Origin: Lachnospiraceae bacterium
GTDB taxonomy: Bacteria; Bacillota; Clostridia; Lachnospirales; Lachnospiraceae
Direction of reading: 5' to 3'
Length of the DNA stretch: 47,720 bases
Assembly (NCBI GenBank): GCA_011959925.1
Contig: BLMD01000383.1
Coordinates: 1-47,720 of the forward strand
Shown in pieces: positions 3,351-46,905 of the stretch (the stretch's first letter is position 1; the number at the start of each line of letters is the position of its first letter). The translations under genes were made by a program, and so were the position numbers. A model generated the notes under the pieces. It ran no database searches. It saw nothing but the letters and a program-made list of their open reading frames with translations, and had not been told where the DNA came from.

Positions 3351-4235
3351 ATGGATCAGGCAGAACAGCTTAGGAATGTAATTAAGAAAAAAAGCAGGGA
3401 AGCGTCAGCTGGATGTGCCAGAGTCCTTACAATTACAAGCGGAAAAGGCGGAGTCGGGAAATCAAATGTAGCGGTCAATATGGCGGTTTGGCTTAGAAGA
3501 ATGGAGCGAAAAGTCATTATAATTGATGCGGATTTGGGATTGGCAAACGTAGAGGTTATGTTTGGCGCAGTTCCGCAATATAATTTAAGCGATTTGATTT
3601 ACCGCGGCAAAAGTATACGGGAGATCATTACAAAGGGACCGATGGATATCGGATTTATTTCCGGCGGACTGGGGATTGCCGGGCTGAATAACTTATCCAA
3701 AGACCAGATCGTATATCTGGTTCATTCGCTGGCAGAATTGAATGAAATGGCAGATGTGATCATTATCGATACAGGAGCCGGTATTTCAGACAGCGTTCTG
3801 GAATTTGTACTCGCAAGCCCCGAAATTCTTTTGGTCAGCACGCCGGAACCAAGTTCTTTGACGGATGCGTATTCTCTGTTAAAAGCACTATACCGGAATC
3901 CTATTTTTTCAAGAGACAAAACAAAGATTAATGTAATTGCAAATAAAGTAACCAGTATAGAAGAAGGAGACGCTGTTTTTTCAAAATTAAATTCAGTCGT
4001 TTCCCAGTTTTTAAAAGGTACGATTGATTTTATGGGAATGATTCCGCAGGATCAGGAAATGGAACATGCGGTCCGCAGTCAGAAAATCGTCTCGATTGAA
4101 AAACCGAGTGCGGAAGTTTCCAAAGCGTTTCAGATTTTAACCAATAATTTTATCAATCATAAACACGAAACGATTACGATGCATAAAGGCATTGCCCAGA
4201 TCATCATTAATTTTCTGGCGAGAAAAGGCATTTAA
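3351..4235 (+). CDS. flhG: Flagellar number regulator FlhG (MinD-like ATPase)
   Basis: FlhG (YlxH/FleN) is a MinD/ParA-type ATPase that limits flagellar number and stimulates FlhF GTP hydrolysis. The 294-residue product starts with DQAEQLR, matching the DQAxxLR activation motif of the family. The deviant Walker A motif GKGGVGKSN lies at residues 31-39, followed by the switch-type IIDADLGLANVE and a Walker B-like IIIDTGAG. The last ~17 residues (IAQIIINFLARKGI) could form an amphipathic membrane-targeting helix; that part is inference. It starts three bases after flhF, and the next gene begins 14 bases after its stop. Confidence 0.95.
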   Translation: MDQAEQLRNVIKKKSREASAGCARVLTITSGKGGVGKSNVAVNMAVWLRRMERKVIIIDADLGLANVEVMFGAVPQYNLSDLIYRGKSIREIITKGPMDIGFISGGLGIAGLNNLSKDQIVYLVHSLAELNEMADVIIIDTGAGISDSVLEFVLASPEILLVSTPEPSSLTDAYSLLKALYRNPIFSRDKTKINVIANKVTSIEEGDAVFSKLNSVVSQFLKGTIDFMGMIPQDQEMEHAVRSQKIVSIEKPSAEVSKAFQILTNNFINHKHETITMHKGIAQIIINFLARKGI

Positions 4236-4249
4236 AGGATTGAAGTAAG

Positions 4250-5707
4250 ATGGGGATAAGTCGGTATCTGGGGTTTTTCCTTGACGAAACGAGAGGATAT
4301 CTGAATACTCTCGAAAGAGGAATTCAGGCGTTGGAAGCCTGGCCTGCCGACAGCGGCAGAATGCATGAAATTTATCTTTCCGTATCTTCGATACACGGCA
4401 TGGCGGCGACGATGGGGTTTACCCGGATGCAGCGTCTTGCGGAAGATATGGAAGGGGCGCTTTTGCAAGCGGAACGCGGCCGTATGCCGGTGACTGCGGA
4501 ATGGAAAGCGATTTTATCGGAGTGCCTGAGGGCATTGGGCGGGTATATCGATCGGATCGAAAGGACGTCGGAAGAAGGGACGGATGACTGCCGTACGCTG
4601 CGCCGGGAGCTTTTTCGTTTGTCGGAAGAGCAGGAGGACGGCAAAGGGCATACAGAGGAACTATCTGCGGCTTTTCCGAAGCAGAGAAGTCAGGTTCTGG
4701 TAGAAAAAGAAGATCTTGATCAACTGATGCATCAGGTGGGCGAACTGATTATGCTGAAAAACCGTTTCAGCCAAGCGGCGGACTCGTCCGTTTGGCAGGA
4801 ACTCTGCGATTTGGAAAAACTGACGGCAAAACTGCACGATTCCGTGAGACGCATTCGACTGATTCCGTTTGTGGAGGTGGTGGGGCAATTTCCCCGCAGG
4901 GTCCGCGAGCTTTCCAGACAGCTGAATAAAAGTATGGCATTGTATATGACGGGTACGGATACAAGGCTGGAGAAGGCTGCGGCGGATGAAATGGGAAGTC
5001 TGCTCTGGCAGCTGATCCGTTTTGCGGCAGAGAACGGAATCGAAGGCATACAGGAGAGAATTCGACAGGGAAAGCCTCAAAAAGGTTCGATTTACCTGAA
5101 TATCCTGCGGAAAGAAGATTATGTGGCAGTTCGAATCCGTCATGACGGAACGAAGGCGGATATCTTTAAATCCGAAGCGGATGTTACCGCCATACGTCAA
5201 AGCGCAGAGGCGTTGGGAGGCGAGTTTTATACCGTGCCGCTTCCGGAAGAAGGGACTGCATTTGAGATCAGGCTGTTTACGTTTGTACCGGTGATCGAGG
5301 CATTGGTTGTAGAAGTCGGCAGGGAGCGCTATGCAATTGCGATGGAAGCGATCCGGAGTGCAGAGGATCTTGCGCCGGAAGAAATTTTTATTTCTCAGGC
5401 GCGGGAATACGGTTATTTGAAAGAGAAAAAAGTACCGTTGCTCCGTCTGGGCAGACGATTCGGCTGCGAACCGACGGAAGCGGACGCGCATATATTAAAA
5501 ACAGTCATTGTTTCCGACGGAGAAACATACGTCGGACTGGTTGTCGACCGTTTGGCAGAAAAACAGGAGATTGTGATCAAATCCCTTGGAAATTTTATGC
5601 AGAAGGATCCGGTCATCCGCGGCGCGGCGATTTTAAACGATAAAACGATTGCGCTGGTATTGAATACGGATGTGCTGCTGCAGGGAGGTGTCGAAGCTGG
5701 AAGATGA
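4250..5707 (+). CDS. Degenerate CheA-like protein, probable pseudokinase
   Basis: The 485-residue product is colinear with CheA but much shorter than the family norm (about 650-700). Residues 1-125 resemble the P1/HPt domain, yet the phospho-acceptor position (H in RAAHSIKG of E. coli CheA) is Ser46 in LSVSSIHG; a His sits three residues later at the usual Lys position. P2 is replaced by a short linker. P3 (about 148-215, DLDQLMHQVGELI, RRIRLIP) is well kept. P4 is shrunken to roughly 125 residues: the N-box Asn is Phe258 (LIRFAAENGIE), the DDGRG box is reduced to HDGTK, and the second glycine-rich box (GRGVGM) is missing. P5 (about 345-485), which binds CheW and receptors, is complete. The frame is uninterrupted and sits where cheA normally lies. 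I infer a non-catalytic scaffold; a true kinase may be encoded elsewhere. Confidence 0.85.
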   Translation: MGISRYLGFFLDETRGYLNTLERGIQALEAWPADSGRMHEIYLSVSSIHGMAATMGFTRMQRLAEDMEGALLQAERGRMPVTAEWKAILSECLRALGGYIDRIERTSEEGTDDCRTLRRELFRLSEEQEDGKGHTEELSAAFPKQRSQVLVEKEDLDQLMHQVGELIMLKNRFSQAADSSVWQELCDLEKLTAKLHDSVRRIRLIPFVEVVGQFPRRVRELSRQLNKSMALYMTGTDTRLEKAAADEMGSLLWQLIRFAAENGIEGIQERIRQGKPQKGSIYLNILRKEDYVAVRIRHDGTKADIFKSEADVTAIRQSAEALGGEFYTVPLPEEGTAFEIRLFTFVPVIEALVVEVGRERYAIAMEAIRSAEDLAPEEIFISQAREYGYLKEKKVPLLRLGRRFGCEPTEADAHILKTVIVSDGETYVGLVVDRLAEKQEIVIKSLGNFMQKDPVIRGAAILNDKTIALVLNTDVLLQGGVEAGR

Positions 5708-6161
5708 GGTTCATATAAATCAGGGGAACGCCAGACAGTTCGTTCTTGCAAAAATCGGTGAAAAATGGTACGGTTTTGATGTAGGTTATGTCAGCCATAT
5801 TATCCGCGTAGGGAATATTGTCAGAGTTCCCGGGTCACAGCCTTATTGGAAAGGAATGATATGCCTGCATGATGAAGTCGTAGCGGTTATGAGCCTTCGG
5901 CTTCGAATGAAGCTGGCAGAGGACACCATCACGGATGATTCCAGAATTCTGGTTATGCATTTAAAAGAGCAGGGGACGTTCGGCGTTCTTGCAGACGAAG
6001 CGGGAGGAATTATAGAATTAGCGGAGGAAGAGATTGTATACAGGACGAAAACTGCAGAAGAGAGCAAAAGCGACATGATCTTTGGGATTGGAAGACATAA
6101 AGATGAAATTGTTTCCCTGATCGATATTTCTGTAGTTGTCGGTGAGTCAGAAAATTTTTAG
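5670..6161 (+). CDS. cheW: Chemotaxis adaptor protein CheW
   Basis: CheW links chemoreceptors to CheA at the cell pole. The product is a complete CheW-fold protein of about 150 residues: FVLAKIGEKWYGFDV opens the domain, VPGSQPYWKGMICLHDEVVAVMSL is the central conserved region (split here at its ends), and ISLIDIS-type residues close it. The start is uncertain. The listed ATG at 5670 has no ribosome binding site in front; GGGAGG at 5683-5688 instead points to an unusual CTG start at 5697 (or GTG 5688), giving a protein starting at LEDEVHINQ. The gene overlaps the end of the CheA-like gene by up to 38 bases, suggesting coupled translation and matched amounts. Confidence 0.93.
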   Translation: MCCCREVSKLEDEVHINQGNARQFVLAKIGEKWYGFDVGYVSHIIRVGNIVRVPGSQPYWKGMICLHDEVVAVMSLRLRMKLAEDTITDDSRILVMHLKEQGTFGVLADEAGGIIELAEEEIVYRTKTAEESKSDMIFGIGRHKDEIVSLIDISVVVGESENF

Positions 6162-6176
6162 ATAAGGAGGAAATGG

Positions 6177-6797
6177 ATGAGCAAAATTACGTTGGAAGAA
6201 GTGAATAACAGATATGTTGACGTATTGAAGGAAATCGGCAATGTTGGAGCGGGAAACGCAATGACTGCAATTGCTTCCATGTTAGGGATCCGGATTGATA
6301 TGAACGTGCCGAAAGTAGAATTGCTGGAGGTTTCAAAGCTTGGGAGTGCGATTTGTCCGGAAGAGGAAATTATCGTCGGAATTTTTTTAGAAGTACAGAC
6401 AGATATCAACGGCAGTATGATGTTTTTGATGAAAATGGATTCCGCACGGTTTCTCGTAAATAAACTGATGGGAAGAAATACGGAAGATGAAAAAGAGTTC
6501 GACGAGATGGATTTGTCCGCGTTGAAAGAAATCGGTAATATCATTGCAGCTTCTTATTTGAATGCACTTTCTGTAATGACAAATCTGATGATCACGCCTT
6601 CGATTCCCTATATTGCGGTTGATATGGCGGCGTCTATTTTAAGCGTCCCGGCAATTTCGTTCGGGCAGTTTGGGGACAATGCGCTTCTGATCCAGACAGA
6701 ATTTGGAGACGATGTGATGATCAGCGGATATTTTATACTGATGCCGGAACAGGATTCTTATGAGAAAATATTGACAGCACTTGGTCTTTCGTTATAA
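6177..6797 (+). CDS. cheC: Chemotaxis protein CheC, CheY-P phosphatase
   Basis: CheC dephosphorylates CheY-P and works with CheD in adaptation. The 206-residue product has both copies of the family's active-site helix: KEIGNVGAGNA (Glu19, Asn22) and, in the second half, KEIGNIIAASYLNA, so both catalytic Glu/Asn pairs are present. There is no hydrophobic signal; it is cytosolic. A strong AAGGAGG lies at 6164-6170, with ATG 6177 the better-spaced of two nearby ATGs. It lies between cheW and cheD with short gaps, so all are in one operon. An intact CheY-P phosphatase beside a CheA without catalytic residues implies that CheY-P is made by another kinase. Confidence 0.95.
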   Translation: MSKITLEEVNNRYVDVLKEIGNVGAGNAMTAIASMLGIRIDMNVPKVELLEVSKLGSAICPEEEIIVGIFLEVQTDINGSMMFLMKMDSARFLVNKLMGRNTEDEKEFDEMDLSALKEIGNIIAASYLNALSVMTNLMITPSIPYIAVDMAASILSVPAISFGQFGDNALLIQTEFGDDVMISGYFILMPEQDSYEKILTALGLSL

Positions 6798-6808: not shown

Positions 6809-7294
6809 ATGAGCAAAGTTATAAAAGTGGGAATGGCAGATTTGAATATATGTAAATCACCGGATACTATAACAACAATAGGACTTGGTTCTTGTATAGG
6901 CCTGACTTTTTATGACCCAGTTGCGAAAATCGGCGGAATGGTGCATTATATGCTGCCGGACAGTACCCAGATGAACAGAAATGGAAATATTGCAAAATAT
7001 GCGGATACCGGAATAGAGGCACTGCTTCGAAAAGTGCTTATGGCAGGAGCCTCCCGGAACCGCCTTGTAGCAAAAATGGCGGGCGGCGCAAAAATGTTTC
7101 AGGTCAGCGGAGCTTCAAATGTAAGCAATATCGGAGAACGGAACGCGCTGGCCGCCAAAGCAAAATTAAGAGAGCTTCGGATACGTCTGATTGCCGAGGA
7201 TACGGGATTAAATTACGGACGTACCGTGGAATTGGACTGCGAAACAGGAGATTTTTATGTAAAAGCGATTGGCAAACCGGTCAAAATAATATAA
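6809..7294 (+). CDS. cheD: Chemoreceptor glutamine deamidase CheD
   Basis: CheD deamidates glutamines of methyl-accepting receptors and binds CheC. The 161-residue product carries the catalytic set in expected spacing: Thr23, Cys29 (TIGLGSCIG) and His46 (GGMVHYMLPDS). The rest of the fold follows, with VAKMAGGAKMF and NIGERNA as conserved motifs. It begins 11 bases after cheC behind GGAGAGG. Known CheC-CheD pairs form a heterodimer that stimulates CheC phosphatase activity, and the adjacency here fits that. Confidence 0.96.
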   Translation: MSKVIKVGMADLNICKSPDTITTIGLGSCIGLTFYDPVAKIGGMVHYMLPDSTQMNRNGNIAKYADTGIEALLRKVLMAGASRNRLVAKMAGGAKMFQVSGASNVSNIGERNALAAKAKLRELRIRLIAEDTGLNYGRTVELDCETGDFYVKAIGKPVKII

Positions 7295-7323: not shown

Positions 7324-7605
7324 ATGAATACGAAGTCGTTACCGGCTGTATTGGCTTTGATTGCTGGTTTGACAACTTGTGTGATGTCATTTATACAGCA
7401 TGTGGATACTGTAGTTTTTGCAAAGAGGTTTGTCATTGTATGCGTCGTCTTTTTTGCAATTGGTATAGTGATAAGCGTTATCATCCAGATGAATTTTAAA
7501 GATATGGAAAAAGACGGGGAAGATGCCTTAGAGGAAGAAGATTCTTCCGGCTCAGAGGATCTGCAGGAGCAGGAAGATAGGAAAGAAGATGAAGAAACCG
7601 AATAA
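7324..7605 (+). CDS. Small two-helix membrane protein between cheD and fliA
   Basis: I do not recognise a named family. The 93-residue product has two hydrophobic segments (about residues 6-26 and 36-55) joined by a short loop, followed by a strongly acidic tail (about residues 60-93, rich in Glu, Asp and Ser). It would be a small inner-membrane protein with an acidic cytoplasmic or external tail. AGAGGAGG sits just before the ATG. Lying 29 bases after cheD and 26 bases before the sigma factor gene suggests a role in motility or simple co-transcription; function is unknown. Confidence 0.8.
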   Translation: MNTKSLPAVLALIAGLTTCVMSFIQHVDTVVFAKRFVIVCVVFFAIGIVISVIIQMNFKDMEKDGEDALEEEDSSGSEDLQEQEDRKEDEETE

Positions 7606-7631: not shown

Positions 7632-8396
7632 ATGAAGACGGCAGAAAAAGAAAAGTTATGGAAATCTTATCAAAAAGATCCTTCACCCGAATTACGCGAA
7701 CAGATCATTTTGGAATATGCGCCGCTGGTAAAAGTTGTAGCGGGCAGATTAAGCATGTACCTGGGATATAATGTCGAGTACGACGATCTGGTTGGATACG
7801 GAATATTCGGTTTGATCGATGCAATCGACAAATACGATGCAGGTAAGGATGTAAAATTTGAAACATATGCAAGCCTCAGAATCCGCGGATCTATTTTAGA
7901 CCAGATCCGGAAGATGGACTGGATACCCAGAACCGTCCGGCAAAAGCAGAAGAAATTGGACGAAGCAGTCAAACAGGTCGAGATGAGAACCGGAAAAAAT
8001 GCCAGCGATGAAGAAATTGCAGTAGAAATCGGTATATCGGAAGATGAACTTGCCGTCTGGCAGTCACAGCTTAAAGTTACCAATATCGTTTCTTTGAACG
8101 AATATGTGGAACAGGGGAGCGAACCGGTCATGGATGCCCGTAACAATTCCCATTTTATACAGCCGGAAGAGCAGATTCAGGAAGACGAATTAAAAAAAGT
8201 ATTGAAAGATACGTTAGAACTTTTGACGGAGAAGGAAAGAAAAGTCATTGAACTTTATTACTATGAAGAACTGACCTTAAAGGAGATCAGCAAAGTCCTT
8301 GGAGTAACCGAATCCAGGATTTCTCAGCTTCATACGAAAGCGCTTCTGAAGATGCGCCGGAAGATGGGAAGCTATATGGATATTTTCGTAGATTGA
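7632..8396 (+). CDS. fliA: Flagellar sigma factor 28 (SigD/FliA)
   Basis: This is the sigma-28 class factor that directs RNA polymerase to late flagellar, motility and autolysin genes. The 254-residue product has regions 2, 3 and 4: the region 2 core (YDDLVGYGIFGLIDAIDKYD, then KFETYASLRIRGSILDQIRKMDWIPR), region 3 (KNASDEEIAVEIGI) and the region 4 helix-turn-helix (LTEKERKVIELYYYEELTL with the recognition segment GVTESRISQLH). Its length matches SigD. It follows the che genes, as in Bacillus and many Clostridia, and overlaps the next gene. No anti-sigma gene (flgM) is seen in the window. Confidence 0.96.
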   Translation: MKTAEKEKLWKSYQKDPSPELREQIILEYAPLVKVVAGRLSMYLGYNVEYDDLVGYGIFGLIDAIDKYDAGKDVKFETYASLRIRGSILDQIRKMDWIPRTVRQKQKKLDEAVKQVEMRTGKNASDEEIAVEIGISEDELAVWQSQLKVTNIVSLNEYVEQGSEPVMDARNNSHFIQPEEQIQEDELKKVLKDTLELLTEKERKVIELYYYEELTLKEISKVLGVTESRISQLHTKALLKMRRKMGSYMDIFVD

Positions 8397-21715: not shown

Positions 21716-22607
21716 AGTTAAAAATCTGGTAAAAGAATTTGACGGGTTCCGTGCATTGGACGGCGCCAATATGTTTGTAAAAAAAGGAGCGATTTATGGT
21801 CTGGTCGGACCAAACGGAGCCGGAAAATCAACGCTTCTTAGGCATCTGACCGGCATTTACCGGCAAAATGAAGGAACGGTTACAATCGACGGAGAACCGA
21901 TTTATGAAAACCCTGGGATCAAAGCAAAATTTGCATTTATTCCGGATGATATTTTCTATTTTATGCAGGCGGATACCATAGAAATGAAACGATTTTACCA
22001 GGGCATTTATCCGAAGTTTGACGAGCAGATGTTTGAGCGCCTGAAAGAATATTTTCCGACGATCGATCCGAAAAAGAATATCCGCAGCCTGTCAAAAGGA
22101 ATGCAGAAGCAGGTGGCGTTCTGGCTTGCCGTTTGTACGAGACCGGAGCTTTTGATTTTAGATGAGCCGGTAGACGGCCTGGATCCTGTGATGCGCCGTC
22201 AGATCTGGAGTATTATTATGGCGGACGTATCGGAGCATGAAACGACGGTGATCGTCTCTTCCCACAATTTAAGGGAATTGGAAGATGTCTGCGATCATGT
22301 GGGAATTATGCATAAAGGGAAAATCATGATCGAGCGGTCGTTAAGCGACCTGCAGGGAAGCGTCTGCAAGATACAGGCGGCGTTTCAGGCAGAGATGCCA
22401 AAACTTCCGGAAGGATTTGAAGTGCTTCATATGTCAAATACCGGAAGGGTTTATACGCTGATCGTAAAGGGGGATCCGGCAGAAGCGAAGCGGCAGCTTG
22501 AGAAAATGCATCCGATGCTGATCGATCTGCTTCCTTTGACACTGGAAGAGATTTTTATATATGAATTAGGAGGGGTAGATTATGAGGTCAAAGACATCTT
22601 GTTTTAA
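21708..22607 (+). CDS. ABC transporter ATP-binding protein
   Basis: The 299-residue product is an ABC ATPase for the permease encoded next. Walker A is GPNGAGKST (about residues 36-44), the signature is SLSKGMQKQ in place of LSGGQ, which is common in ABC-2 type exporters, and Walker B is LLILDEPVDGLDP, followed by the switch His in VSSHNLRELEDVC. A C-terminal accessory region of about 75 residues follows. The gene overlaps both neighbours (8 and 26 bases), so the three proteins are translationally coupled. In YtrA-type systems such transporters often respond to cell-envelope antibiotics; the substrate here is unknown. Confidence 0.93.
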   Translation: MVEVKNLVKEFDGFRALDGANMFVKKGAIYGLVGPNGAGKSTLLRHLTGIYRQNEGTVTIDGEPIYENPGIKAKFAFIPDDIFYFMQADTIEMKRFYQGIYPKFDEQMFERLKEYFPTIDPKKNIRSLSKGMQKQVAFWLAVCTRPELLILDEPVDGLDPVMRRQIWSIIMADVSEHETTVIVSSHNLRELEDVCDHVGIMHKGKIMIERSLSDLQGSVCKIQAAFQAEMPKLPEGFEVLHMSNTGRVYTLIVKGDPAEAKRQLEKMHPMLIDLLPLTLEEIFIYELGGVDYEVKDILF

Positions 22608-24480
22608 CAAAACGATTTTCTTCAAAAATATTACGCATTTCTGGCCGATCTGGATGTTGATTCTGGCATGGAATCTGTTTGTCCTGCCGTTTATGATCTA
22701 TAACAGTTCTCAGCAGTATAAACTGATGAATGATATCGGGAAAGAAGAACTGGAACAGTCTATGTCAAACGATATTTTATCGCTGGTTGCGGTCTATATC
22801 AATCCGGTTGTGTTGTTTATATTTTCTGTCGTTGCGGTGATGGCAGTATTTTCCTATCTCTATCAGGCAAGGTCGGCGAATACCATTCATGCGCTGCCTG
22901 TGACAAGAAAGGAACTGTTCTTTACGAATTATATTTCCGGCCTGCTGTTTTTGATTGTTCCGGAAATCATCGGATTTCTGATGGGAATTTTAGTCAGCGC
23001 GTTTTGCGGTTATGCGTATATGAACCACTTGCTGGCAGGACTTTTGTTTGCATGCGGGATCAGTACGGCGCTTTACAGTTTTAATGTGTTTATTGCCATG
23101 TTTACCGGGCAGCTTTTTGCCGTGCCGATTTTTGCCGTAATCATTCACTTTTTGTATGTAGGCGCAAAGACGCTGGTGGCAATGGTAATGTCTATGATTT
23201 CTTACGGTTTGCCGATGTCGTTTCCAGGAGGTAAACTGGATGTGCTTTCGCCGCTTTTCTATCTGTTGAGACATGTGAGGTTAGAGTATGACCATACAAA
23301 GGATTATGCGGTCATTATCGGAATACAGGGAAAAGAAACCGTAACGGTTTACGTTCTCGTTTCGCTGGTATTTGCAGTGGCTGCGTATCTGATTTACCGG
23401 ATCCGGAATATGGAATCTGCGGGCAGTTTGGTTTCGATCGCCTGGATCTGTCCGATCTTTCGGTGGGGCGCGGCGTTTTGCGGAGGCGCATTGTTCAGTG
23501 CCATTTTCTGCAGCATTATGGGATTTTCTGCGGGTATATCGGTTTTTATAGCGGTGTTGGTGTCGGCAGTTTTCTTTGGGATTGTATTCTTTTTTGGGGC
23601 GCAGATGTTTTTGGAAAAAGGGTTCCGTGTCTTTACGAAAAAGAGAATTGCAGAATGCGGTATATTTCTTGTGATATTTGCCGGTCTGTATGTTTCGATT
23701 GAAGTGGATTTATTTGGACAGGAGCGGAAAATACCGGATGTATCGCAGGTGGATCGCGCGTATATCGATGCTTATGACTCGATTGGAGGTTCCGATGAGG
23801 AGATGATCGGGCAGGTGATGGATATACACAGACAGGTGATTGATTCCAAACGGGAATTTGAACGCCATGAGGCACAGAGCTGGCAGAATTTATATATTAC
23901 CGTTCGGTATTATATGAAAAACGGATCTACGATCACGCGCAGCTATGCGATTCCGGCAGACGACGGCATGTTAGAGGATAACGATACGGTTCTTCACAGG
24001 GTTGCCCAGCTGGCAGCCGTTCCGGACAATTATCGCCGGCTGCTGTTTGGAGAGGAGGATCAGGAGATTGAGCCGATCGGCGGCTGGATCGAATTGTATA
24101 ACGATCAGGAAGCGGCAGATCAGAAAAAATTTTCCAAAGAGGATGCAGAATACGTATATCGTGCGGTACTTGCCGATATTGAAGAAGGAAATTTTAAAGA
24201 TGTGATCATGAATCGATATTCGTCTGACAACAGCGACAGCCAGGCGTATGACAATACGCTTGTACTGGAATGCCTTTCAGAGAATAACGAAACAAACGGC
24301 GATGCGGGACCGATGTATTCTTATGCCTATGAGAAGGCAAGTGCGGCTTCTATCAATGCCTATATCAGGTTTGATGCCAATTGCCATCATGTGCTTGATA
24401 CCTTAAAAGAGATCGGAGCGATCCAGGGAGAGGAAGACCTGATTACGGTACAGGAGAGAAGTGAGCAATCCGATGAATAG
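22582..24480 (+). CDS. ABC-2 type permease with soluble C-terminal domain
   Basis: The 632-residue product is the membrane partner of the preceding ATPase. About ten hydrophobic segments lie within residues 15-385. The last ~240 residues are soluble and acidic, with no hydrophobic stretch, resembling the DUF6449-type tail reported in some clostridial permeases (recalled, not verified). Residues such as TIHALPVTRKELFFTNYISG (about 100-120) match the cytosolic coupling loop common to ABC-2 permeases. AGGAGGGG precedes ATG 22582. It ends the operon; a strong hairpin follows. Confidence 0.85.
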   Translation: MRSKTSCFNKTIFFKNITHFWPIWMLILAWNLFVLPFMIYNSSQQYKLMNDIGKEELEQSMSNDILSLVAVYINPVVLFIFSVVAVMAVFSYLYQARSANTIHALPVTRKELFFTNYISGLLFLIVPEIIGFLMGILVSAFCGYAYMNHLLAGLLFACGISTALYSFNVFIAMFTGQLFAVPIFAVIIHFLYVGAKTLVAMVMSMISYGLPMSFPGGKLDVLSPLFYLLRHVRLEYDHTKDYAVIIGIQGKETVTVYVLVSLVFAVAAYLIYRIRNMESAGSLVSIAWICPIFRWGAAFCGGALFSAIFCSIMGFSAGISVFIAVLVSAVFFGIVFFFGAQMFLEKGFRVFTKKRIAECGIFLVIFAGLYVSIEVDLFGQERKIPDVSQVDRAYIDAYDSIGGSDEEMIGQVMDIHRQVIDSKREFERHEAQSWQNLYITVRYYMKNGSTITRSYAIPADDGMLEDNDTVLHRVAQLAAVPDNYRRLLFGEEDQEIEPIGGWIELYNDQEAADQKKFSKEDAEYVYRAVLADIEEGNFKDVIMNRYSSDNSDSQAYDNTLVLECLSENNETNGDAGPMYSYAYEKASAASINAYIRFDANCHHVLDTLKEIGAIQGEEDLITVQERSEQSDE

Positions 24481-45912: not shown

Positions 45913-45946
45913 AAGGATTCGGACATTATAACAGATAAAAAGAAAG

Positions 45947-45991
45947 ATTCCCTGTATGCGGTAAGTGGGTACGGCATACAGGGAATTTTTT
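45947..45991 (+). terminator. Rho-independent terminator after the GH13 gene
   Basis: ATTCCCTGTATGC (45947-45959) pairs perfectly with GCATACAGGGAAT, followed by a T tract (TTTTT) to 45991. Confidence 0.92.
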
Positions 45992-46010
45992 GCTTACGTT
46001 TAGTCGTATG

Positions 46011-46044
46011 ATCATAAAAATGACATAAAAATTTCTTTTATGAT
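46011..46044 (+). repeat. Inverted repeat upstream of the LytTR regulator gene
   Basis: ATCATAAAA (46011-46019) and TTTTATGAT (46036-46044) form a perfect nine-base inverted repeat with a 16-base spacer that contains a further CATAAAA copy. It lies in the 173 bases between the GH13 terminator and the regulator gene, where a promoter is expected; no confident -35/-10 pair was found. It might be an operator. Confidence 0.45.
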
Positions 46045-46164
46045 GTTTTAAGTACCGATTATGCTGTGAAAGGGTTGCAGAAACATGTAAAGCCAAGTAT
46101 AATTCTAAATCGTGTCGAAATACAAACGATAAGATATTATAAAGATACGGGAGAAATAAAAAAG

Positions 46165-46905
46165 ATGGATAAAAAAATATTATTAATTGGAATTTGTGAT
46201 GATGAAAAAGAAGCGCTGAATCAGATTGCAGAATCCATAAAGGAGAGTATCCGGGAGATGGAACTCCCGATACACACAAAATGCCGGTTATTTCTGAATG
46301 GGGAAGGGATGTACCAGGCAATCGAAAAAGATGCGTTTGATCTGTTATTTGTGGATATAGAAATGCCCGGATTAAACGGATTCCAATTAGTAAAAAAGAT
46401 CTCGATGCGTCGAAAAATGCCGTGCCTGGTATTTGTTTCTGCTTACGAAAGTTTTGTTTTTGATTCACAGGAATATATGCCCTTATGGTTTGTAAGAAAA
46501 AGCAGCTTAAAGAGGGATATGTACCGGGCATTATATAAATATTTTGAAGTGAAACAGCCGCAGAAGGTCTGCTGTTTTGCCCAAAATAACGCGAAATTAC
46601 AGGAATTGTACATTCATGACATTGTGTATATAGAAAGCAGGGGGCATGCAGTATATATCCGGAAAACGCAGGGACGTGTGACGAAACAGTACGGAAGTTT
46701 AAAAGCATTTGAAAAAGAGCTGGCGCCGTATGATTTTCTGCGCATACATAAAAGTTACCTTGTGAATCAGGAATTTATTGCTGAAATCGGAAAGAAAGAA
46801 GTGTTTTTAAAAGACGGGTCCGCTTTGGAAATGGGAAGAGACCGCAGGAAATCGCTGTGCGAAGCTATGGCCAGGTATGAAAGGAAACACTATGGATATC
46901 AATGA
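46165..46905 (+). CDS. LytTR family response regulator
   Basis: The 246-residue product has an N-terminal receiver domain and a C-terminal LytTR DNA-binding domain, the AgrA/ComE architecture. The receiver has the acidic pair in GICDDEKEA (residues 9-17), phospho-acceptor Asp64 in LFVDIEMPGLNG and a Lys at WFVRKSS. The LytTR domain (about 145-243) shows IVYIESRGHAVYIRKTQG (split at its ends), FLRIHKSYLVNQEFI and VFLKDGSALEMGRDRR. Start ATG 46165 follows GGGAG; an upstream in-frame ATG adds 33 residues not typical of receivers. It overlaps the kinase gene at 46892. Confidence 0.93.
   Translation: MDKKILLIGICDDEKEALNQIAESIKESIREMELPIHTKCRLFLNGEGMYQAIEKDAFDLLFVDIEMPGLNGFQLVKKISMRRKMPCLVFVSAYESFVFDSQEYMPLWFVRKSSLKRDMYRALYKYFEVKQPQKVCCFAQNNAKLQELYIHDIVYIESRGHAVYIRKTQGRVTKQYGSLKAFEKELAPYDFLRIHKSYLVNQEFIAEIGKKEVFLKDGSALEMGRDRRKSLCEAMARYERKHYGYQ

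Follow-up and report, generated by a model that had tools for sequence, protein, structure and literature searches.

Here, we identify CheA*, a CheA homologue encoded in the flagellar operon of a Lachnospiraceae bacterium, as a protein that is not expected to phosphorylate CheY, because the acceptor His and the N, G1 and G2 boxes have been lost. The reading that we prefer, and to which we give about an even chance, is that CheA* persists under weak selection as a kinase-dead remnant, probably an array subunit beside a working second kinase, CheA2. Across 15 genomes of the genus, the kinase is complete, partly dismantled, predicted to be dead or lost altogether, beside a second CheA and with a receptor set cut to about a quarter on average. 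These genomes offer natural mutants for the role of CheA in arrays apart from phosphorylation.

In the window, by which we mean the whole stretch of 47,720 nucleotides analysed (contig BLMD01000383.1, genome G000), the list of open reading frames gives cheA* as an uninterrupted frame of 485 codons with an ATG start (Table 1). Aligned with 25 canonical CheAs, a set that excludes CheA2 (L001), a split frame (L030) and the eroding proteins described below, the P1 site reads LSVS46SIH49G versus the canonical RAAHSLKG; the Hpt domain is still present, with Ser46 instead of His at the acceptor position. F258 occupies the position of the N-box Asn, the G1 box reads H298-D-G-T-K302 at the position of the canonical DDGNG, and the ATP lid and the G2 box (GRGVGL) are deleted. 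Pfam recognizes Hpt (41.7 bits), the CheW domain of P5 (69.8 bits; cut-off 23.5) and, barely above the cut-off of 23, H-kinase_dim of P3 (23.4 bits). It finds neither P2 nor, up to an E value of 1, HATPase_c in CheA*; as controls, HATPase_c scores 62.8 bits in a canonical CheA of the same genus and 60.5 bits in the second CheA of the window genome. At the level of sequence, these losses exclude CheA* as a canonical kinase and bear out its description as a pseudokinase. A sequence-only reading of this DNA had proposed an intact CheA homologue without the P1 His, P2 and the ATP boxes, and frame, alignment and Pfam confirm it. Two details change: P4 is ∼44 residues shorter than the canonical domain (141 versus 185 aligned codons), not about 55, and the G2 box, correctly called missing, reads GRGVGL rather than GRGVGM in same-genus relatives. 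In a structure model, P1, P3, the P4 core and P5 are all predicted to be present, in a model biased to a CheA-like fold because its input alignment was rich in canonical CheA.

Table 1. Coordinates of cheA*, its domains and altered motifs, and associated genes (window positions, except the last row)
Feature	Position	Strand	Basis
flhG (MinD-like ATPase)	3351..4235	+	comparison with six same-genus canonical loci and six outgroup loci
cheA*, predicted kinase-dead CheA homologue, 485 aa	4250..5707	+	open frame; Pfam Hpt, H-kinase_dim, CheW
P1 (Hpt), residues 1-103	4250..4558	+	alignment with 25 canonical CheAs; predicted helices
Ser46 codon (place of the phospho-His)	4385-4387	+	
His49 codon (place of the following Lys)	4394-4396	+	
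Short linker, P2 gone	4559..4693	+	no P2 match; low-confidence model stretch 129-149
P3 dimerisation hairpin, residues 149-205	4694..4864	+	weak H-kinase_dim; predicted helices 153-175 and 181-203
P4 remnant, residues 206-346	4865..5287	+	
Phe258 codon	5021-5023	+	
HDGTK of P4	5141-5155	+	
Gap where lid and G2 box are missing	about 5156-5188	+	
P5 (CheW-like), residues 347-478	5288..5683	+	
cheW*	5688..6161	+	CheW domain in the frame from 5670 (Pfam, 76.2 bits); sequence; canonical CheW rows
cheC	6177..6797	+	ordinary rate of change
cheD	6809..7294	+	ordinary rate of change
Flagellar-type sigma factor gene (presumed)	7632..8396	+	open frame; orthologous across the genus; used in species tree
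Syntenic receptor gene	G000 contig C199, L259:2811-3722		syntenic loci L260, L261, L262

An error of sequencing or reading, named beforehand as something that would undo this picture, is most unlikely because CheA* recurs: it belongs to a single 90% cluster (P0001) of 66 sequences from 256 contigs, whose representative differs from CheA* at 6 of 485 residues (each protein search scored about 8,000 candidates, of which the best 120 were listed). A family-wide profile search at E 1e-70 matched only 1 of 397 genomes, that of the window, with at most four candidates scored per genome and a threshold that excludes canonical CheA, such that distant eroded CheAs can be missed. The window genome itself is a bin of 418 contigs, about 93% complete and with 5.16% contamination.

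The gene directly follows flhG, and pilZ and cheB are therefore missing from 4236-4249. At its other end, cheW* has a GTG start that overlaps the end of cheA*, and its product carries CLHD in place of the canonical NLRG (Leu-His-Asp at 5865-5873). Downstream of cheC and cheD lies a gene that we take to encode a flagellar-type sigma factor; this gene and flhA, flhF, cheB, cheR and the CheV-like, FliY-like and CheY-like genes were named by reading and mutual BLAST. Three further frames in the window are recorded here in their own right. A 93-aa protein encoded between cheD and the sigma factor gene (7324-7605) has no Pfam match over cut-off. A 632-aa protein (22582-24480), whose gene follows those of a GntR regulator and an ABC ATPase, has none at E 0.001 and is perhaps an unusual permease. 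Finally, a frame of 260 open codons on the reverse strand (45926-46708) is antisense to a LytTR response-regulator gene (46066-46905, forward strand) and is probably a shadow frame.

Three states of the operon are found among the 15 genomes, for which six other genera served as outgroup. Six genomes (G002, G004, G008, G010, G011 and G014) have the canonical order flhG-pilZ-cheB-cheA-cheW-cheC-cheD, which is also that of the six outgroup loci. In five (G003, G005, G006, G007 and G009), pilZ is followed by cheC, and cheB, cheA and cheW are gone; the locus is contiguous in G003, G006 and G009, split within pilZ in G005 and starts within pilZ in G007. The remaining CheA match in four of these five is of the CheA2 type, that in G006 being a contig-end fragment. 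The contiguous loci of G003, G006 and G009 (L120, L121 and L119, respectively) read flhG-pilZ-cheC-cheD, and cheC, cheD and CheY stay conserved there. The last four genomes (G000, G001, G012 and G013) have an eroding CheA, and pilZ and cheB are absent from all three readable loci, the locus of G012 being cut by a contig end. In a species tree from seven proteins rooted on the six other genera, the canonical genomes are basal, and the loss clade (support 99) is sister to the eroding clade together with a second operon fragment of G001 (99). The G001 bin holds two cheW-cheC stretches (L125 on C74 and L048 on C148), one canonical-like and one eroding, and is either a mixed bin or a genome with two operon copies. 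The flagellar CheY is at least 89% identical in 14 of the 15 genomes, the query's own included, and all five genomes without the operon's CheA (CheA1) have it. G000 is missing matches for both the flagellar CheY and the FliY-like protein, which we attribute to a gap in the assembly, given that flhA is where the contig begins.

The eroding CheAs have reached different stages. In G001, P2 is lost and GRGVGL has become GNGFGL, with the lid, the acceptor His and the N-box Asn kept. P0004, a metagenome protein of unknown context, has lost P2 and the lid and kept the Asn and the His. The G013 protein retains P2 and the His, has Tyr for the N-box Asn and has lost the lid and the G2 box; in G012, the Asn is Ala, the lid and the G2 box are lost, and P1 lies beyond the contig end. 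CheA* of G000 has lost all of these. The HATPase_c score follows from 62.8 bits in the canonical protein through 55.0 in G001 and 44.2 in P0004 to 19.1 in G013 (cut-off 26.4), and G012 and G000 give no match. In the CheA gene tree, the eroding proteins form one clade (support 100) with long branches beside the same-genus canonical CheA, and this placement, together with synteny, indicates common descent with the flagellar-operon CheA. A single loss of the lid is not rejected on this tree (AU p 0.5); forcing the pairs G001+G013 and G000+G012 is disfavoured by the AU test (p 0.02) but not by KH (0.06) or SH (0.09).

Receptors and CheW have changed alongside. Counting PF00015 matches at E 0.001, we find 26-31 per canonical genome (six genomes, mean 28.3), 6-10 per loss-clade genome (five, mean 7.6) and 3-12 per eroding genome (four, mean 7.5). 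These genomes differ in completeness (G012 73%, G001 79%, canonical G002 54%), and one receptor match each in G013 and G011 falls below cut-off. The profile comparison of receptors covered 82 of 83 loci, one G013 match below cut-off having been dropped. Of the nine receptors of G000, seven find a reciprocal best hit among the loss-clade genomes; with counterparts in genomes that have neither CheA1 nor CheW1, these seven seem not to need CheA*. One receptor gene is flanked by NfeD-like and patatin-like genes, both in the four eroding genomes and in canonical G008 and G014; in canonical G011, it follows the NfeD-like gene. In the three canonical genomes, it has 608-620 codons and is 75% identical, and the G011 product contains sCache, HAMP and MCPsignal. 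The versions in the eroding genomes are reduced to 200-401 codons, are 25-39% identical to one another and to that of G011, and have MCPsignal without Cache or HAMP in all three scanned; the G013 protein passes the MCPsignal cut-off. A membrane segment follows a possible start in three of the four, and none is seen in the G013 frame. The receptor lists of three of the five loss genomes (G003, G005 and G009) contain no counterpart, and a 143-codon receptor fragment in G003 has no NfeD-like neighbour within 17 kb. A candidate in G004 was rejected, with no NfeD-like gene and 37% identity. The CheW proteins of G012 and G001 (L041 and L048) each have about 30 residues deleted from their interior.

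A second, complete cheA, which the sequence-only reading had suggested looking for, was found in the window genome. CheA2 (720 aa, contig C417) has P1 to P5, all over the Pfam cut-offs, and every motif (HTIKG, NAVDHG, DNGKG and GRGVG). Against its orthologues in six other genomes of the genus, identity is 72-90%, and we therefore reject contamination as its source. By reading, its gene neighbours cheW, an MCP gene, a CheY-like gene, cheB and cheR; a CheW-domain protein encoded on C415 is read as CheV-like. G000, about 93% complete, has only two P3 matches, on different contigs, and no kinase partner is seen in the cheA* operon, of which the part upstream of flhA is off the contig. With CheA2 as donor in trans, P1 of CheA* could still act as a phosphotransfer domain through His49, which lies three residues, or about one helical turn, after Ser46; G013 and P0004 keep the original His despite a damaged P4, as in a split kinase. 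We consider this most improbable, for the canonical His and P2 are gone from CheA*, and His49 sits at the canonical Lys site and is found in none of the three other eroding CheAs with a readable P1.

The eroding CheAs evolve fast. Across six pairs from four species, dN is 0.43-0.68, dS 1.4-3.9 and omega 0.17-0.43, omega being rough because dS is near saturation. Over the same species, where sequence was available, dN of FlhF, FlhG, CheC, CheD and SigD is 0.045-0.148, and pair by pair the rate of CheA* exceeds that of the neighbouring genes about 4- to 15-fold. Four pairs of canonical CheA have a dN of 0.047-0.126 and an omega of 0.03-0.07. The acceleration extends to every domain, P5 included: P5 of CheA* is 37-43% identical to that of the three other eroding CheAs (37% for G000/G012), compared with 85-95% in four canonical pairs. 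The earlier statement that P3 and P5 are well conserved thus holds for recognition of the domains but not between species. Nor are these two domains specially preserved: the share of invariant canonical sites still present is similar throughout, at 22 of 41 for P1, 21 of 36 for P3, 34 of 68 for the P4 remnant and 29 of 55 for P5. A high dN/dS had been proposed as a sign of decay rather than of a scaffold, and the outcome falls in between: omega lies far above the canonical range but below 1.

These rates bear on the main rival explanation, for which there is a lesser though appreciable chance, namely slow decay of the CheA1-CheW1-receptor module toward the outright loss that the sister clade has already undergone. 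The cheA* frame would then be kept open mainly for translation downstream, as stops would cut translation of cheW, cheC and cheD. Such decay fits the absence of cheB and pilZ, the small number of receptors, the joint erosion of CheA, CheW and one receptor in several stages, the loss of cheB-cheA-cheW in the sister clade and the start of cheW* inside cheA*. However, cheC survives without cheA in the sister clade, and two further observations argue against decay. First, the four eroding lineages contain no stop or frameshift (G012 as a 389-codon fragment) despite their dN. In a neutral simulation with 300 runs per level, stop-free copies arose twice at 0.10 changes per site and never at four higher levels, from 0.20 upward. 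This simulation, of substitutions only, rejects a strictly neutral pseudogene. Second, the same residues tend to be kept in separate lineages, for which polarity alone is no explanation: sites that are canonical in a third lineage are co-kept in two others with odds ratios of 2.5-4.6 (p<0.05 in 8 of 10 dependent comparisons), a signal that codon mutability and brief shared ancestry on the tree could strengthen. A test of hydrophobic-core substitutions is mildly positive in G001, G013 and P0004 (z 2.0-2.5) and weak in G000 (z 1.4; P1 alone -0.3) and G012 (z 0.7). By its unbroken frame, the simulation and the co-kept sites, cheA* behaves as if it were under selection, in line with the earlier expectation.

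Fast change could also reflect a new job, with selection that has changed and in part favours diversity; CheA* might, for example, partner CheC/CheD or compete with CheA2 and so dilute it in arrays. CheA*, CheW* and the syntenic receptor are fast together, and mixed baseplates of paralogues have been reported in Azospirillum (PMC6759762). We nevertheless regard a new job as unlikely: omega is below 1, CheC and CheD evolve at their usual rate, and Pfam detects no new domain over cut-off in CheA*.

We return to the kinase-dead array subunit as our preferred reading. We suggest that CheA2 phosphorylates CheY, so that the cell could do without the kinase of the operon itself. Outright loss of cheB-cheA-cheW would then have followed in the sister clade, while in the clade of CheA* the kinase and the sensing parts would have gone first. 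The array-building contacts, i.e., receptor tip, CheW, P5 and P3, may persist under weak selection, and P5 of CheA* would dock on CheW and a receptor tip. Because these contacts persist, a residual structural role is favoured; because they change fast and the sister clade has lost cheB-cheA-cheW, slow decay stays a serious rival. Against a structural role, we count the absence of CheA* from the sister clade, the receptors with counterparts there, the damage to CheW (NLRG lost from CheW*, the deletions in G012 and G001), the G013 receptor frame without a membrane segment, the weak hydrophobic-core signal in G000 and G012, and the fast change of all domains, P5 included, with P3 and P5 kept no better than P1. 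A stronger version seems doubtful to us: a natural kinase-free array that neither senses nor signals, in which the receptor stripped of Cache and HAMP, the degenerate CheW and the CheA lacking both His and ATP site are retained jointly as a pure scaffold that tunes or decorates the CheA2 system.

The nearest full kinase for comparison is the canonical CheA of the same genus (G008, Roseburia sp. 1XD42-69), which, like CheA*, is encoded before cheW-cheC-cheD and has P1, P3 and P5 in the same order; its 694 aa include P2, an acceptor His and every ATP box, whereas CheA* is without these. A survey by Berry et al. of 13,673 CheAs reports HATPase_c in every one and as the most conserved domain (PMC10782961). 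Measured against this survey, the genus seems to be an exception to a universal HATPase_c, caught in progress. The survey finds CheA homologues through HATPase_c plus CheW, and proteins like CheA* may therefore escape CheA catalogues. Our literature search, with most subscription papers outside its scope, found no kinase-dead or degenerate CheA of a flagellar operon, and the earlier statement that no CheA like this had been described is close to right. It is qualified by the closest precedent, CheA3 of R. sphaeroides (Cereibacter), which forms a split kinase with CheA4 and whose P4, without a helix and the ATP/Mg residues, is called not functional in the same survey (PMC10782961). CheA3 shares a dead P4 with CheA*; however, it has a working P1 His and CheA4 in its operon, in contrast to Ser46 in P1 of CheA*. 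CheA1 of Borrelia burgdorferi, which coexists with a genuine CheA2, is reported to be unneeded in vitro for chemotaxis (PMC10703414); it is described as highly similar in sequence and structure to other CheAs and is not eroded, unlike CheA*. In Vibrio, ParP enters arrays and promotes their formation through a domain resembling CheA P5 (PMC5706961). ParP has a ParC-interaction N-terminus, while CheA* has an Hpt N-terminus (P1), P3 and a P4 remnant. By analogy, mixed baseplates of CheA paralogues (PMC6759762) and ParP (PMC5706961) make a structural role possible, not proven, for CheA*.
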